Assembly: GCA_007116145.1 (NCBI GenBank)
Contig: SKJB01000037.1
Span: forward strand, 1-47,733
Source: Limnochordia bacterium
GTDB lineage: Bacteria; Bacillota; Limnochordia; Darwinibacteriales; DTU012
Direction: 5' to 3'
Length of the DNA stretch: 47,733 nt
In this document: positions 12,095 to 45,288 of the stretch, piece after piece
Position numbering within the stretch: the stretch's first letter is position 1
Layout of the letters: every line of letters starts with the position of its first letter
Notes under the pieces: generated by a model
What the model saw: only the letters and a program-made list of their open reading frames with translations
Database searches by the model: none
What the model was told of the DNA's origin: nothing
Translations under genes and position numbers: made by a program

Positions 12095-12268
12095 GGTCCT
12101 GAAGCTCACTATGGCATTTTTACAGATCAAATGGTGGTAAGGAGAAACTATTTAACTGAAGAAGAGTTGGTAGAGCTTATTGCTCTAACTGGTATTTTAC
12201 CTGGTCCAAGTAGTACCCAAACTATTGTTGCTATCGGCCATAAAATCGGAGGACCATTTTTGGCATTT
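12095..12268 (+). pseudogene. Chromate transporter (ChrA) fragment running into glgC
   Basis: The frame at 12095-12268 reads [17 protein letters not shown], then [20 protein letters not shown], then [19 protein letters not shown]. This matches residues ~30-90 of a ChrA-type chromate transporter, including the conserved 'LPGP' turn and 'GGP' motif. It lacks the start, most membrane segments and the C-terminus. The frame continues without a stop into glgC, so automated annotation would add ~55 foreign residues to GlgC. It is a gene relic created by deletion or rearrangement. Confidence 0.75.
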
Positions 12269-12295
12269 GATCAATACGAGAATGGGGGTTGTTGT

Positions 12296-13468
12296 ATGGT
12301 ACAGCCAAAAAGAGAATGCATTGCCATGATTCTAGCTGGAGGTCAAGGAAGTCGATTAGAAATATTGACAAGTAAAGTAGCAAAACCTGCTGTACCCTTT
12401 GGAGGGAAATATCGGATAATTGATTTTTCTTTGAGTAATTGTTCTAACTCTGGTATTTATACTGTAGGCGTGTTAGTTCAATATCAACCGCTAGCACTAA
12501 ACTCATATTTAGGGATTGGAGCACCCTGGGGTCTAGACCGAAGAAATGCTGGAGTCACTGTATTGCCGCCTTTTGTGCGCACAGGTGGGGGTGAATGGTA
12601 TAAGGGGACTGCAAATGCTCTTTTTCAAAACATCGAGTTTATTGAAATGTATGATCCCGAATACATCCTTGTTCTCTCAGGTGATCATGTCTATAAGATG
12701 GACTACTCTCTAATGCTAGATTTTCACAAAGAGCAACAAGCTGCGACCACTATAGCATCCATACAGGTTCCTTGGGAAGAAGCTAGTCGGTTTGGAATTC
12801 TAGACTGTAGTGAAGATATGTCGATTGTAGAATTTGCAGAAAAACCACTCGAGCCGAAAAATAACCTGGCTTCGATGGGTGTTTACATATTTAACTGGCA
12901 GGTTCTTAAGCACTATCTCGAGTTAGATGAGGTAGATACAAGTTCTGCTCACGATTTTGGCAGAAACATTATCCCAACCATGCTCAACAATGGTGAGAAA
13001 ATGTCTGCATATCTTTATAATGGTTACTGGAAGGATGTTGGTACTCTGGAAAGCTTGTGGCAAGCAAACATGGATTTACTTGCTGATAATCCACTCTTAA
13101 CACTTGATGATCCTAACTGGCGTATTTACTCCACTAATCCAAGCAAGCCAGCTCAGTATATTGGGAAGAATGCAACCGTTTCAGAGTCTCTAGTCAACGA
13201 AGGGTGCTACATCGAAGGAGATGTAAAACATTCGGTTTTATTTACTGGTGTCACCATTGGCAAGGGTTCGAAGGTTATTGATTCTGTGCTCATGCCAAAT
13301 GTGAGAGTTGGGAATAATGTTGTGATCCACAGATCGATTGTTGGTAGTGAGACGGTAATCGAAGATCATACATACATCGGCGAGAGACATAATACGGAGA
13401 GGTTGACTGTGGTTGGTGGATCGTTAACCATACCAAGTAGGAAAGAATTAATCGGTACTATCGGTTAA
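12296..13468 (+). CDS. glgC: Glucose-1-phosphate adenylyltransferase
   Basis: A 390-residue enzyme that makes ADP-glucose, the glycogen precursor, from glucose-1-phosphate and ATP. The nucleotidyltransferase domain starts with [21 protein letters not shown] and has the [15 protein letters not shown] signature; [12 protein letters not shown] and the sugar-phosphate-binding [11 protein letters not shown] follow. A C-terminal left-handed beta-helix begins near [18 protein letters not shown] 12296 with GGGGG upstream is chosen; the frame extends 55 codons upstream only through a chromate transporter remnant. It lies 13 nt before glgD in a glgC-glgD-glgA operon. Confidence 0.95.
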
Positions 13469-39452: not shown

Positions 39453-39686
39453 CTAGTCAGATATGATACCTAATAATCCTCCAATGATAATGTATTGTCT
39501 GCCGTTAACAAAAATGTCACAGGCTGCCTCTGTTGCACCATTGTTTTCAAAGCGTAGTAACAACTGGTTCTTTGCGGCTGCACAAAAGCATTTGTATACT
39601 GGGTTGTACGGGAGTTGATTAGCGGGAGTACGTATTGCTTGCAAGCTGTGATGACGAACAACAAAAATAATTGACAATTCAGTCAA
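39453..39686 (-). CDS. Possible hypothetical protein, probably 5' truncated
   Basis: A 77-codon frame ending 21 nt before the next minus-strand gene. It reads like a globular beta protein (LLLRFENNGATEAACDIFVN, GRQYIIIGGLLG). Its only start is a TTG without a ribosome binding site, overlapping the plus-strand promoter at 39671, so the original start may be lost. Confidence 0.3.
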   Translation of the reverse strand: MTELSIIFVVRHHSLQAIRTPANQLPYNPVYKCFCAAAKNQLLLRFENNGATEAACDIFVNGRQYIIIGGLLGIISD

Positions 39687-39699
39687 TTTAGCGTATAAT
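39671..39699 (+). promoter_or_regulatory. Consensus promoter of the double-glycine peptide gene
   Basis: A perfect TTGACA (39671-39676), 17-bp spacer and perfect TATAAT (39694-39699). Transcription should start near 39706, which excludes the ATG at 39702 as a start codon. Confidence 0.85.
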
Positions 39700-39734
39700 C
39701 TATGACAGGGCCTATAAATTCTACTGTGAGGAGC

Positions 39735-39992
39735 GTGATTAGTATTAGTAAGCTTAGTTCTAACAGTATTGGTTTTTCTACCTTAAGTACAACCGAATTA
39801 CAAGAAACAAACGGTGGTGGGTGGAAAATAACAGTGGTATTGTATGTACTTGAAGTATGTGTTAAATACTTTACGGGAAAGAGCACTCTAGATCATGGGG
39901 TTAGTGCAGTAGAAACTCTTGTAGAACATGCATCTAATTCGGCATGGGATGAGGAATTCGAGAAAGCAAACGGAACATACACTGTCTACTAA
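39735..39992 (+). CDS. Double-glycine leader peptide (putative bacteriocin or signal peptide)
   Basis: About 85 residues. The leader ends LSTTELQETNGG, matching the LSxxELxxIxGG consensus cleaved by C39 peptidase-containing ABC exporters; cleavage would fall at residue 28 or 29. The predicted mature part (~56 residues) has a hydrophobic stretch (KITVVLYVLEVCVKYF) with one Cys, then an acidic amphipathic tail. GAGGAG is 1 nt from GTG 39735 and 10 nt from an in-frame ATT, so the exact start is uncertain. No second peptide is adjacent. The next gene encodes an HExxH membrane protein, a possible immunity or processing partner. Confidence 0.7.
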   Translation: MISISKLSSNSIGFSTLSTTELQETNGGGWKITVVLYVLEVCVKYFTGKSTLDHGVSAVETLVEHASNSAWDEEFEKANGTYTVY

Positions 39993-40049
39993 AGTGGAAG
40001 CAAGCGTGTAGTATATAGGCCCTACTAAACTAAATCTAAGGGTGATACC

Positions 40050-40613
40050 ATGAAACCTCATATTGAAGAGACCTATAGTCCGATTTCTATTCATATTATA
40101 TCATTATGTATGGCTGTTACTGTTTTTTTAATCACAAAATGGATTTTTTGGGTATATTGGAATACAACAGTAGATTTCTTAGTTCCAAGATTTGGACCTG
40201 ACTCCAATAGCTTTATTTTAAACTGTCTCATTATCGCTATCTTATTTGGAATCCATGAGCTTATACATGCTCTAACTTACATTATACTTGAAAAAAAGAA
40301 TACTGTACGTTTTGGAGTTGTGGGCAAGCACTTATGGCTGATGGTTCATACTGACGATCCTATGCGCTTAGGCACCTATCGTGTTATATGTTTGATGCCT
40401 GCGGTCATTTTAGGTGTATTTCCTGTACTTCTTGGCTTCTGGTTCGGTTGGCTAAATGTTGTACTGACTGGAGGATGGATGATTGTTGGAAGTACGTCGG
40501 ACATACTACTTTTTTTTAGGAGCTTGAAATACCCCAAGAACGCCGTCGTATGGAATATAGCTGAGTCTGTTGGTTTTATGGTCAATGTTGATACAACGAC
40601 TACTACATTATAA
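40050..40613 (+). CDS. DUF3267-type membrane zincin (HExxH)
   Basis: A 187-residue membrane protein with about four helices. The second carries HELIHA at residues 69-74, an HExxH zinc-protease motif. NNTVRFGVVGKHLWLMVHT-like spacing and the later MPAVILGVFPVLLG segment fit DUF3267 ('putative zincin peptidase'). AAGGGTGAT lies before ATG 40050. It is 57 nt downstream of the double-glycine peptide gene and no promoter was found between them. Membrane metalloproteases are linked to some peptide-bacteriocin loci, so immunity or maturation is plausible but inferred. Confidence 0.82.
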   Translation: MKPHIEETYSPISIHIISLCMAVTVFLITKWIFWVYWNTTVDFLVPRFGPDSNSFILNCLIIAILFGIHELIHALTYIILEKKNTVRFGVVGKHLWLMVHTDDPMRLGTYRVICLMPAVILGVFPVLLGFWFGWLNVVLTGGWMIVGSTSDILLFFRSLKYPKNAVVWNIAESVGFMVNVDTTTTTL

Positions 40614-43188: not shown

Positions 43189-45288
43189 GTGGCACAGTTA
43201 GCGCAACTTGAACATAACTCTAAGAATCAGCCCCGATCTGAGGATGATACAATGTCTATTCAGGACGCTGCGGTAATTCTTTCGGTTTCAAGAGCCACAG
43301 TACGAAACTGGATGAAATCTGGTCTTCTTACATCGGAGAAGAACGGGCGCAGTACTTGCTTGGTTAGAAATGATGTTCTATCTCTTAAACAGAGTATAGA
43401 AAGCGGTGATAACAGTCGCCTAAAAAGCAGAAGAAATAAAAAGACGAAAGTAGGCAACTGCGTTCCAACGAACTATGTTTCAGATCGGTACTATGAGAAT
43501 CTTGCAGTGGAAGTTTTGGACATGGTCGAGCAGATGCATAGTGATAAAAAGACGGAACTTATTTTAGCTGAGATAGCAATAAAACTAGTAATTGATGCTA
43601 AGAAGATTACTCTTTGTCGTCCTTCTAGCACTACCTATCTAGAGACACTTCAGAAGGGTGATGATGTGGGGCAATATGGAGAGTTGGTGAGAACTCTATT
43701 GCCAACGGAATTTGAGTTGTCCAATGAAGACGTAAGAATACTCTCGAAAGTTTCTGAACTAAGTATTCCTTTTTGTCCAGGCGAGGACTTCCTAGGTCTT
43801 ATATACATGTCTCTCAATAATTTAGGCGCTAGAAAGGCTTCTGGGAGTTATTATACTCCATCATTTATCGTTGATCAGCTTGTAGAAAGGTGTTTCGGAC
43901 AGGTAGTAACTAGGGAACAGAGGGCTGTGGATCCTTGTTGTGGATCTGGCAACTTTCTTATAAAGTTATTTTACCGGTTAAAACGGTATTTTCGTACGAA
44001 GGGAACATCGTCTGTTGACTCGGAGAAAGAAGCCATTAGGAGTCTGTATGGGTATGATGTTGATCCAATTGCGATTGGATTATGCAGATTGAACTTAGCA
44101 TTAGCTACAGAGTGTAGTCTCGATCAAGATTCGTTGCTAAGACAAATTGTTGTGCGAAATAGTCTATGTCATACCTGGGATGAGGATAGCTTTGCTTTGG
44201 TGTTAGGAAACCCACCGTGGGGCTTTAGTTTTTCTGATGATGAATTGGACAGTCTTAGGGATAACTATTGCACTGCACTATCTGGTGAGTCGTTCTCTTT
44301 ATTTATTGAACTTGGTTTAAGTATCTTGGCTCCTAATGGAAAACTTGCTTACGTACTACCACAATCTCTTTTAAACGTGAAACTTCATGAAGGTGTCAGG
44401 CTTCTTCTTCTAGCGATGACAAAGCTAGAGTGCATAAATCTCCTGGGTCATTCGTTTGGAAACGTCTATGCTCCCGCACTAACCCTAGAAGCGAGTAAGG
44501 GAACTCCTGCGATTTCCCATACTGTTGACGTCATAAATGATGATAGTCTCCACCAGATACCGCAAATGCGATTCAGCAGTAATGATCTTGCTATTTTCAA
44601 TGTAAACAGTACAACCAAAGAACAAGTCATATTAGACAAAATGAAAAATGTAAGTGGAGTTATGTATCTTAAAGGAAATGCCACTTTTGCTTTAGGGATT
44701 GTAACTGGCGATAATAATTCAATTATTCATGGTACCATTCCTAACGGAGGTGAATTGATCTTAAAAGGGAGTGACATATTTAAGTATAACTCTATCCCGT
44801 CTGCAAACTATATAGCCTATGCTCCTGAAAGCTATCAACAGGTTGCGCCTACTAAACTGTACCGTGCACCTGAAAAGCTCATCTACAGGTTTATCAACGA
44901 ACGTCTAATATTCGCTTACGATGACAAACAAACCTTGACTCTTAATAGTGCAAACATAGTTATTCCTCACTTTGAAGGGTATTCGCTCAAGTACATCCTT
45001 GCTGTGCTCAATTCTCGCTGTGCCCAGTTTTTCTTTACACTATCTTTTTCTTCGGTTAAGATATTGCGTAAACACTTAGAGTCCATCCCCATCCCCTCTT
45101 GTACACCTGAGCAACAGGAGATTATTGTAAACCACGTTAACGAGGTGCTGATCACCAGCGATGCAAATGCTCGAGATCAGATATATGATCGAATTGATGA
45201 CCTTATATCGAACCTATTCAATCTCAATGAGTTGGACATCAGGTTGATTAAAGAGTCTATCCCTCAGAAAGCATTGCTTTACAGATAA
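43189..45288 (+). CDS. Solitary N6-adenine DNA methylase with N-terminal HTH domain
   Basis: A 699-residue protein. Residues ~22-65 are a MerR/excisionase-type HTH (SIQDAAVILSVSRATVRNWM). A methylase domain follows: SAM-binding DPCCGSGNFLIKLF near residue 247, GYDVDPIAIGLC, and catalytic NPPWGF near residue 341, as in N6-adenine enzymes. The C-terminal part (LKYILAVLNSRCAQFFF, ILRKHLESIPIPSCTPEQQ) is a TaqI/type I-like target recognition region. AAGGAG precedes the GTG start. No nuclease motif or restriction gene is adjacent, so it may be an orphan regulatory methylase or a decayed type IIG system. Confidence 0.88.
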   Translation: MAQLAQLEHNSKNQPRSEDDTMSIQDAAVILSVSRATVRNWMKSGLLTSEKNGRSTCLVRNDVLSLKQSIESGDNSRLKSRRNKKTKVGNCVPTNYVSDRYYENLAVEVLDMVEQMHSDKKTELILAEIAIKLVIDAKKITLCRPSSTTYLETLQKGDDVGQYGELVRTLLPTEFELSNEDVRILSKVSELSIPFCPGEDFLGLIYMSLNNLGARKASGSYYTPSFIVDQLVERCFGQVVTREQRAVDPCCGSGNFLIKLFYRLKRYFRTKGTSSVDSEKEAIRSLYGYDVDPIAIGLCRLNLALATECSLDQDSLLRQIVVRNSLCHTWDEDSFALVLGNPPWGFSFSDDELDSLRDNYCTALSGESFSLFIELGLSILAPNGKLAYVLPQSLLNVKLHEGVRLLLLAMTKLECINLLGHSFGNVYAPALTLEASKGTPAISHTVDVINDDSLHQIPQMRFSSNDLAIFNVNSTTKEQVILDKMKNVSGVMYLKGNATFALGIVTGDNNSIIHGTIPNGGELILKGSDIFKYNSIPSANYIAYAPESYQQVAPTKLYRAPEKLIYRFINERLIFAYDDKQTLTLNSANIVIPHFEGYSLKYILAVLNSRCAQFFFTLSFSSVKILRKHLESIPIPSCTPEQQEIIVNHVNEVLITSDANARDQIYDRIDDLISNLFNLNELDIRLIKESIPQKALLYR

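Follow-up and report, generated by a model that had tools for sequence, protein, structure and literature searches.

A candidate bacteriocin/immunity pair of a double-glycine peptide and a DUF3267 membrane metalloprotease, with a predicted 5'-end/intergenic RNA helix, in a Limnochordia bacterium

What is a short peptide with a double-glycine (GG) leader doing beside a membrane metalloprotease-like gene, with no exporter next to it? The question is raised by the window, by which we mean the whole 47,733-nucleotide stretch analysed here; it is contig C54 of the source genome G000 (2.76 Mb, 164 contigs, 97% complete), and all features of the peptide-protease unit given below lie on the + strand. 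An earlier note on this DNA had offered two answers, a bacteriocin with a protease-type immunity protein or a peptide signal with its own processing protease. Our genome comparison leans to the first, while processing by the protease is still viable in view of TmcP, a DUF3267 protein discussed below.

The pair is preceded by a sigma-70-type promoter, TTGACA-17-TATAAT, at 39671..39699 with a consensus match of 12/12, which confirms the consensus promoter of the earlier note. The peptide gene lies at 39735..39992 (85 codons counted from GTG 39735), in an ORF open from ATG 39702. Since this ATG precedes the point where transcription is expected to begin, 5-7 nt downstream of the -10 box, the peptide probably starts at GTG 39735; a non-standard ATT start is also conceivable, and the Shine-Dalgarno-like GAGGAG read from the sequence at 39728..39733 has a short, poor spacing to the GTG, which makes the choice of start codon tentative. 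The leader MISISKLSSNSIGFSTLSTTELQETNGG (39735..39818) is assigned to the C39 type by its pattern and by model matches. It ends in LSTTELQETNGG and has hydrophobic residues at -12/-7, Glu/Asp near -8 and Gly-Gly at -2/-1. Under a strict GG-leader pattern for small ORFs, the peptide ORF was the sole match in the window, and neither 60 dinucleotide shuffles nor 74 kb of control loci gave any, which bears out the earlier statement that the leader fits the C39 cleavage consensus. The leader was also matched by the NCBIfam model of lactobin A/cerein 7B leaders (E 4e-4) and the leader region by Pfam ComC (E 0.048), both below the model cut-off. The predicted mature peptide GWKITVVLYVLEVCVKYFTGKSTLDHGVSAVETLVEHASNSAWDEEFEKANGTYTVY (39819..39989), delimited by the family alignment, contains a TGKS motif and has a core of about 50-57 residues, a charge of -4, one Cys and a best 19-residue hydropathy of 1.15.

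The second gene (40050..40613), with a Shine-Dalgarno-like AAGGGTGA read from the sequence at 40038..40045, encodes a 187-aa DUF3267 (PF11667) membrane protein, an S2P-like zincin. Both the family and the HELIHA motif named in the earlier note were recovered: PF11667 matches at E 6e-15 with 56 bits against a gathering score of 27.1, and HELIHA occupies residues 69-74. Across 12 DUF3267 proteins, H69, E70 and H73 of the HELIH zinc motif (residues 69-73; 40254..40268) are conserved, except that E70 is K in one, and D151 (40500..40502), the distal aspartate expected of the S2P clan, is invariant. With H69, E70, H73 and D151, the window protein has HExxH plus a distal Asp, so that the predicted catalytic residues are kept and the active site appears intact. 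An AlphaFold2 model shows four long helices at a mean pLDDT of only 50. Because the two genes are on the same strand, are separated by a 57-nt gap and have no terminator called between them, they are probably co-transcribed.

Other parts of the window hold features of their own. A glucose-1-phosphate adenylyltransferase-like ORF at 12131-13468 opens with a chromate-transporter-like stretch, either as a fusion or as an overrunning frame. Between 19335 and 25514 are genes for an HTH regulator, a GH3-like acyl-adenylating protein, two B12-type radical SAM-like proteins and an acetyltransferase-like protein, all named from sequence only, which may form an uncharacterised biosynthetic cluster. At 43189-45288, a single protein combines an N-terminal helix-turn-helix (HTH_17), an N6 adenine methylase and a TaqI-like specificity domain.

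How, then, could the peptide leave the cell? As the earlier note had observed, no peptidase-ABC exporter is adjacent. The C39 exporter is absent nearby and present on contig C68 (C68:16556-16957(-), E 1.8e-41), in a protein with C39, ABC-membrane and ABC-ATPase domains. Its frame is open, QHDITDC, the LLHYVVIH histidine region and the IADP aspartate region are all present, and the exporter reads as intact; the gene after it is HlyD-like, a name taken from its sequence and not from a profile search. The other C39 match in G000 is a broken peptidase stub on contig C4. As the sole intact C39-ABC/HlyD exporter is on another contig, the window peptide is an exporter orphan, with no linked exporter and yet a C39 exporter in its genome; the earlier note had named a genome without any exporter as a refutation of its reading, and this condition does not hold. 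Two observations can be added on these contigs. Adjoining the C68 exporter (L006:17313-17565 (-)) is a GG leader, LSDDEMQLTEGG, followed in a different frame by a glycine-rich bacteriocin-like core, probably through a frame break or a sequencing error. The C4 stub (L007:2679-2861 (-)) lies downstream of a GG peptide + CPBP pair, on a contig that also carries tyrosine-recombinase-like genes and an IS21-like gene.

The peptide belongs to a small family. A peptide profile (A1) searched across G000 and other genomes found five homologues in G000 (on C54, C21, C4, C117 and C50), a sixth in G002, which belongs to the same family as G000, and a seventh in G220 (E 4.7e-8), from a different class of the phylum; remaining matches were weaker. 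In the alignment of these seven, the common core runs from a hydrophobic stretch through TGKS, TGRS or TGQD to a polar helix-like stretch. Homologues without a GG leader, which would speak against the earlier reading of the peptide, were not among them, the leader being kept in 7/7, and the peptide's link to DUF3267 recurs in a second pair on C21, where an 87-residue ORF with LSEEQLQEIDGG is followed downstream by a DUF3267 protein of 189 residues with HEFIHA. The C4, C117 and G002 peptides have CPBP (PF02517) partners instead (E 5.3e-19 to 2.1e-22); the window peptide has no CPBP gene next to it and DUF3267 in that place. G000 has seven CPBP genes, and only those on C4 and C117 follow a GG peptide. 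At the C50 locus no partner gene was found. The TGKS peptide of G220 lies directly behind C39-ABC and HlyD genes, which links the peptide family to C39 export; ABC-2/ABC genes are downstream, and no protease partner was seen at that locus. A tblastn search of the peptide against plasmids and phages gave no match. The C21, C117 and G002 promoters (L008:5190-5230, L020:1670-1710 and L021:4795-4830) share a CTGAA(T)AAT-like spacer sequence, possibly a common regulator site, which the window promoter spacer does not have.

Is a GG peptide a usual companion of DUF3267? In a phylum sample of 299 genomes, DUF3267 occurred in 19, our own genome included, with 20 loci besides the two own genes. Of these, 18 were counted readable, L063 having an ambiguous frame and L067 being close to a contig end, and a GG peptide within about 1.5 kb was found in 0/18, so we rejected the linkage as a general rule. 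The class of G220 has six DUF3267 genes in 37 genomes. In G457, of a distant genus, C39-ABC, HlyD, two GG peptides, CPBP and DUF3267 stand in one row, and in G455 and G458 DUF3267 is found in comparable exporter/GG-peptide islands, where transposase-like genes intervene; the remaining DUF3267 genes of that class are not linked. The peptide-DUF3267 linkage, which the earlier note had thought worth looking for in other Bacillota, recurs in the C21 pair of G000 itself and in these three islands and fails at the 18 other phylum loci: it is confined to this peptide family and to a single exporter-linked lineage, and is not a general Bacillota pattern. A search of DUF3267 against plasmids gave one weak match, a Prevotella DUF3267 protein, and a contig scan with the two own DUF3267 proteins gave one, in Thermacetogenium sp. 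UBA4966, with no clear GG peptide nearby. In the DUF3267 tree, C21 and the G457 group are split from the C54 protein with a branch support of 96/94, and the supported branches require three or more label changes; the two own rows are long, which leaves their exact placements unsure. As the two own DUF3267 proteins sit in separate branches, this partner was most likely gained more than once by the peptide family. Beside these results, we note that the G457 island includes a third membrane metalloprotease-like gene (L090:10283-10993; weak Peptidase_M50, HELGHA), and that distant phylum genomes (G317, G244 and G424, at L051, L052 and L053) carry large GG-peptide arrays with small membrane proteins, apparently bacteriocin/immunity arrays.

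A further feature, which like the CPBP-paired paralogues does not appear in the earlier note, is shared by peptide loci with either kind of partner. In the window, a left arm AGGGCCTATA (39707..39716), at the expected transcript 5' end, is the exact reverse complement of a right arm TATAGGCCCT (40014..40023) between the two genes, 14 nt ahead of the DUF3267 Shine-Dalgarno sequence. These arms were first spotted by eye, and the same positions were then tested at the other loci for an ungapped helix, with test windows set at the promoter and at the gap. The 5' end and the gap are complementary in 4/4 short-gap pairs: besides C54, these are C21 (GAGGGGCAAATT/GATTTGTCCCTC; 12 pairs, two of them G-U), C117 (GAGGAGCACT/GGTGCTCCTC) and G002 (GAGAGGGG/CCCCTCTC). 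The arm sequences differ between loci, and the best partner of each left arm is its own right arm. The best ungapped helix energies summed to -63.1, whereas 3,000 shuffles averaged -18.6 and went no lower than -40.4; the single loci fell at about 0.06-0.25% of 7,866 same-spacing pairs of test windows from G000 DNA, and the partition function gave arm pairing probabilities of 0.86-1.00 at all four. The covariation comes from four loci, three of them in one genome, and the weak G002 promoter makes the 5' end of that transcript less sure. A looser duplex test allowing long internal loops gave a weaker signal, equalled by 0.7-8% of shuffles. Taken as a whole, the window transcript has an unremarkable MFE (z -0.20), so that the case for a helix stands on the arms. 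The helix was absent from C50, which has no partner, from C4, with its 362-nt gap, from G011 and, by the looser test, from G220; Rfam gave no match in the window.

The peptide ORF lies inside the loop closed by the predicted helix, which stops some 12-15 nt short of the Shine-Dalgarno sequence of the second gene. The G-U pairs and the differing arm sequences speak for arms that act through RNA pairing rather than as a DNA repeat or a protein operator. Long-distance 5'-3' pairing is known to silence translation in hok and AapA-type toxin mRNAs (PMC6733600), a precedent that serves here as a lead. There, as predicted for the window, the mRNA of a small peptide has its ORF closed in a loop by a 5' end that binds a distal element; unlike in hok and AapA3, the distal arm of the window lies between two operon genes and not at the 3' end, Shine-Dalgarno occlusion is not consistently predicted, and no antisense RNA is known. 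We rejected occlusion of the Shine-Dalgarno sequence by the helix, because the unpaired probabilities shift inconsistently over the four loci, and from this lack of a consistent change in accessibility we take the helix to act more probably on mRNA stability or on segment processing. Our broader proposal is that the peptide family has recruited unrelated membrane metalloproteases (DUF3267 at least twice, and CPBP) as interchangeable partners, and that in its short-gap operons a conserved 5'-end/gap helix, kept by compensatory change, controls how much peptide is made relative to protease. Such a helix would be a new kind of riboregulatory element in operons of the bacteriocin/immunity type; we advance this proposal tentatively, with slightly less than even confidence.

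For the window pair itself we propose that the peptide is a class II-like bacteriocin, exported in trans, and that the membrane metalloprotease is its dedicated immunity protein, a reading we hold with confidence evenly poised between belief and doubt. A single strong promoter would yield a short bicistronic mRNA. Its 5' end would pair with the intergenic gap so as to enclose the peptide ORF, and the helix would probably stabilise the peptide segment and set the peptide:protease ratio. The leader would be cut after GG and the ~57-residue core sent out via the C68 C39 peptidase-ABC/HlyD exporter, which may serve several orphan peptides in trans. The mature peptide, a predicted hydrophobic helix, TGKS turn and second amphipathic stretch, would hit the membrane of related bacteria, while the DUF3267 S2P-like zincin would protect the producer in the position where paralogous peptides use CPBP. 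In favour of this scheme are a GG leader above chance and five homologous peptides in one genome, two with DUF3267 and two with CPBP. The GG leader and the in-genome C39 exporter explain leader removal without DUF3267, and a protease family that varies while its position stays constant is what peptide-specific immunity would lead one to expect. One-to-one pairing, interchangeable proteases and an exporter-bearing cluster with both DUF3267 and CPBP lean the same way. CPBP proteins are described as immunity proteins for plantaricin-type peptides (Kjos et al. 2010, as cited in PMC9298176). Several points count against the scheme. An acidic core is unusual for a bacteriocin, and the mature peptide is at -4; the C50 paralogue has no partner; the exporter is unlinked and its acceptance of the leader only presumed; TmcP, the only tested DUF3267 relative in a peptide cluster, processes; and SagE and SilX show that CPBP proteins can process rather than protect.

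These last points open the way to the main rival reading, in which DUF3267 is a maturation protease that cuts a membrane-associated precursor or trims it after C39 cleavage, and CPBP does likewise for the paralogues. TmcP, a DUF3267 S2P-like protease, removes the TmcA leader, as active-site mutants have shown (PMC13252029), and SilX, a CPBP protein, is required for making a bacteriocin but not for immunity to it (PMC9298176); the kept active-site residues and the lack of an adjacent exporter at the window pair would fit such a role. The window leader is nevertheless of the C39 GG type in a genome with an intact C39 exporter, the G457 cluster has CPBP and DUF3267 despite its own C39 exporter, and homologues adjoining C39 exporters have no protease at all. 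A shared processing enzyme needs no separate protease per peptide. The C54 mature peptide lacks a stretch with the hydrophobicity of a clear transmembrane helix (1.15), and it has only one Cys in its core and no TmcE/TmcBC neighbours. We consider maturation unlikely, yet deserving of serious weight.

Alternatively, the pairs could be mobile-element remnants that are no longer expressed or functional in the host. The C21, C4 and C50 loci adjoin transposase-like or recombinase-like genes, as read from the sequence, and the broken stub on C4 and the out-of-frame leader and core on C68 fit this reading; the window pair keeps a perfect promoter, open frames, catalytic residues and base-paired arms, all of which would be lost without selection, and this makes the explanation improbable. 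Least probable by our estimate is a ComC/BlpC-type pheromone processed or sensed by the membrane protease: the window leader resembles ComC and BlpC leaders and the genome has histidine kinases with HATPase_c_5-type domains, but the best such match lies outside any ComD-like operon, no histidine kinase or response regulator stands beside any peptide locus read, five divergent paralogues with interchangeable proteases are unlike one signal and one receptor, and the core of ~50 residues is long for a ComC pheromone.

Returning to the pair as a bacteriocin with its immunity protein, we can set it beside known systems. GG peptides with CPBP-type immunity are already known. In the CPBP (Abi)-immunity class II loci such as plantaricin, as far as these are described through Kjos et al. 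2010 in PMC9298176, a small GG peptide is likewise followed by a multi-pass metalloprotease-like protein, and the C4, C117 and G002 paralogues carry exactly CPBP; unlike these loci, the window has a DUF3267 partner, no linked exporter or regulator, an acidic TGKS core and long-range RNA arms. The C39-ABC/HlyD islands of the distant genus g167 (G220, G384, G455, G457 and G458) share TGK-motif peptide homologues with the window, and three of these genomes have DUF3267 there, one of them CPBP too; they differ in having a linked exporter with ABC-2 transporter genes behind it, and in G220 no promoter-proximal RNA arms were seen. To our knowledge, DUF3267 had no assigned function before TMcin. The TMcin work made one DUF3267 member a peptide-processing intramembrane protease, and its cluster, like the window, joins a short peptide gene to a DUF3267 S2P-like protease (PMC13252029). 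Unlike TMcin, the window peptide has a C39-type leader and neither a second conserved Cys nor a clear transmembrane helix, and TmcE-like and TmcBC/TmcD-like genes were not seen adjoining the pair; given its one Cys, its low hydropathy and the absence of tmcB/tmcC or tmcE nearby, we rejected membership in TMcin.

A DUF3267 partner, the interchange of protease families and a covarying helix were not found in the literature searched, with subscription literature largely outside it. Homologous GG peptides with DUF3267 or CPBP in the same slot are a natural experiment: the family makes it testable whether such proteins protect or process, and why unrelated metalloproteases interchange. GG-peptide pairs without a linked exporter are probably easily missed by cluster-based genome mining. 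The covarying 5'-end/intergenic helix, in turn, would be a new means of setting the ratio of a peptide to its partner.
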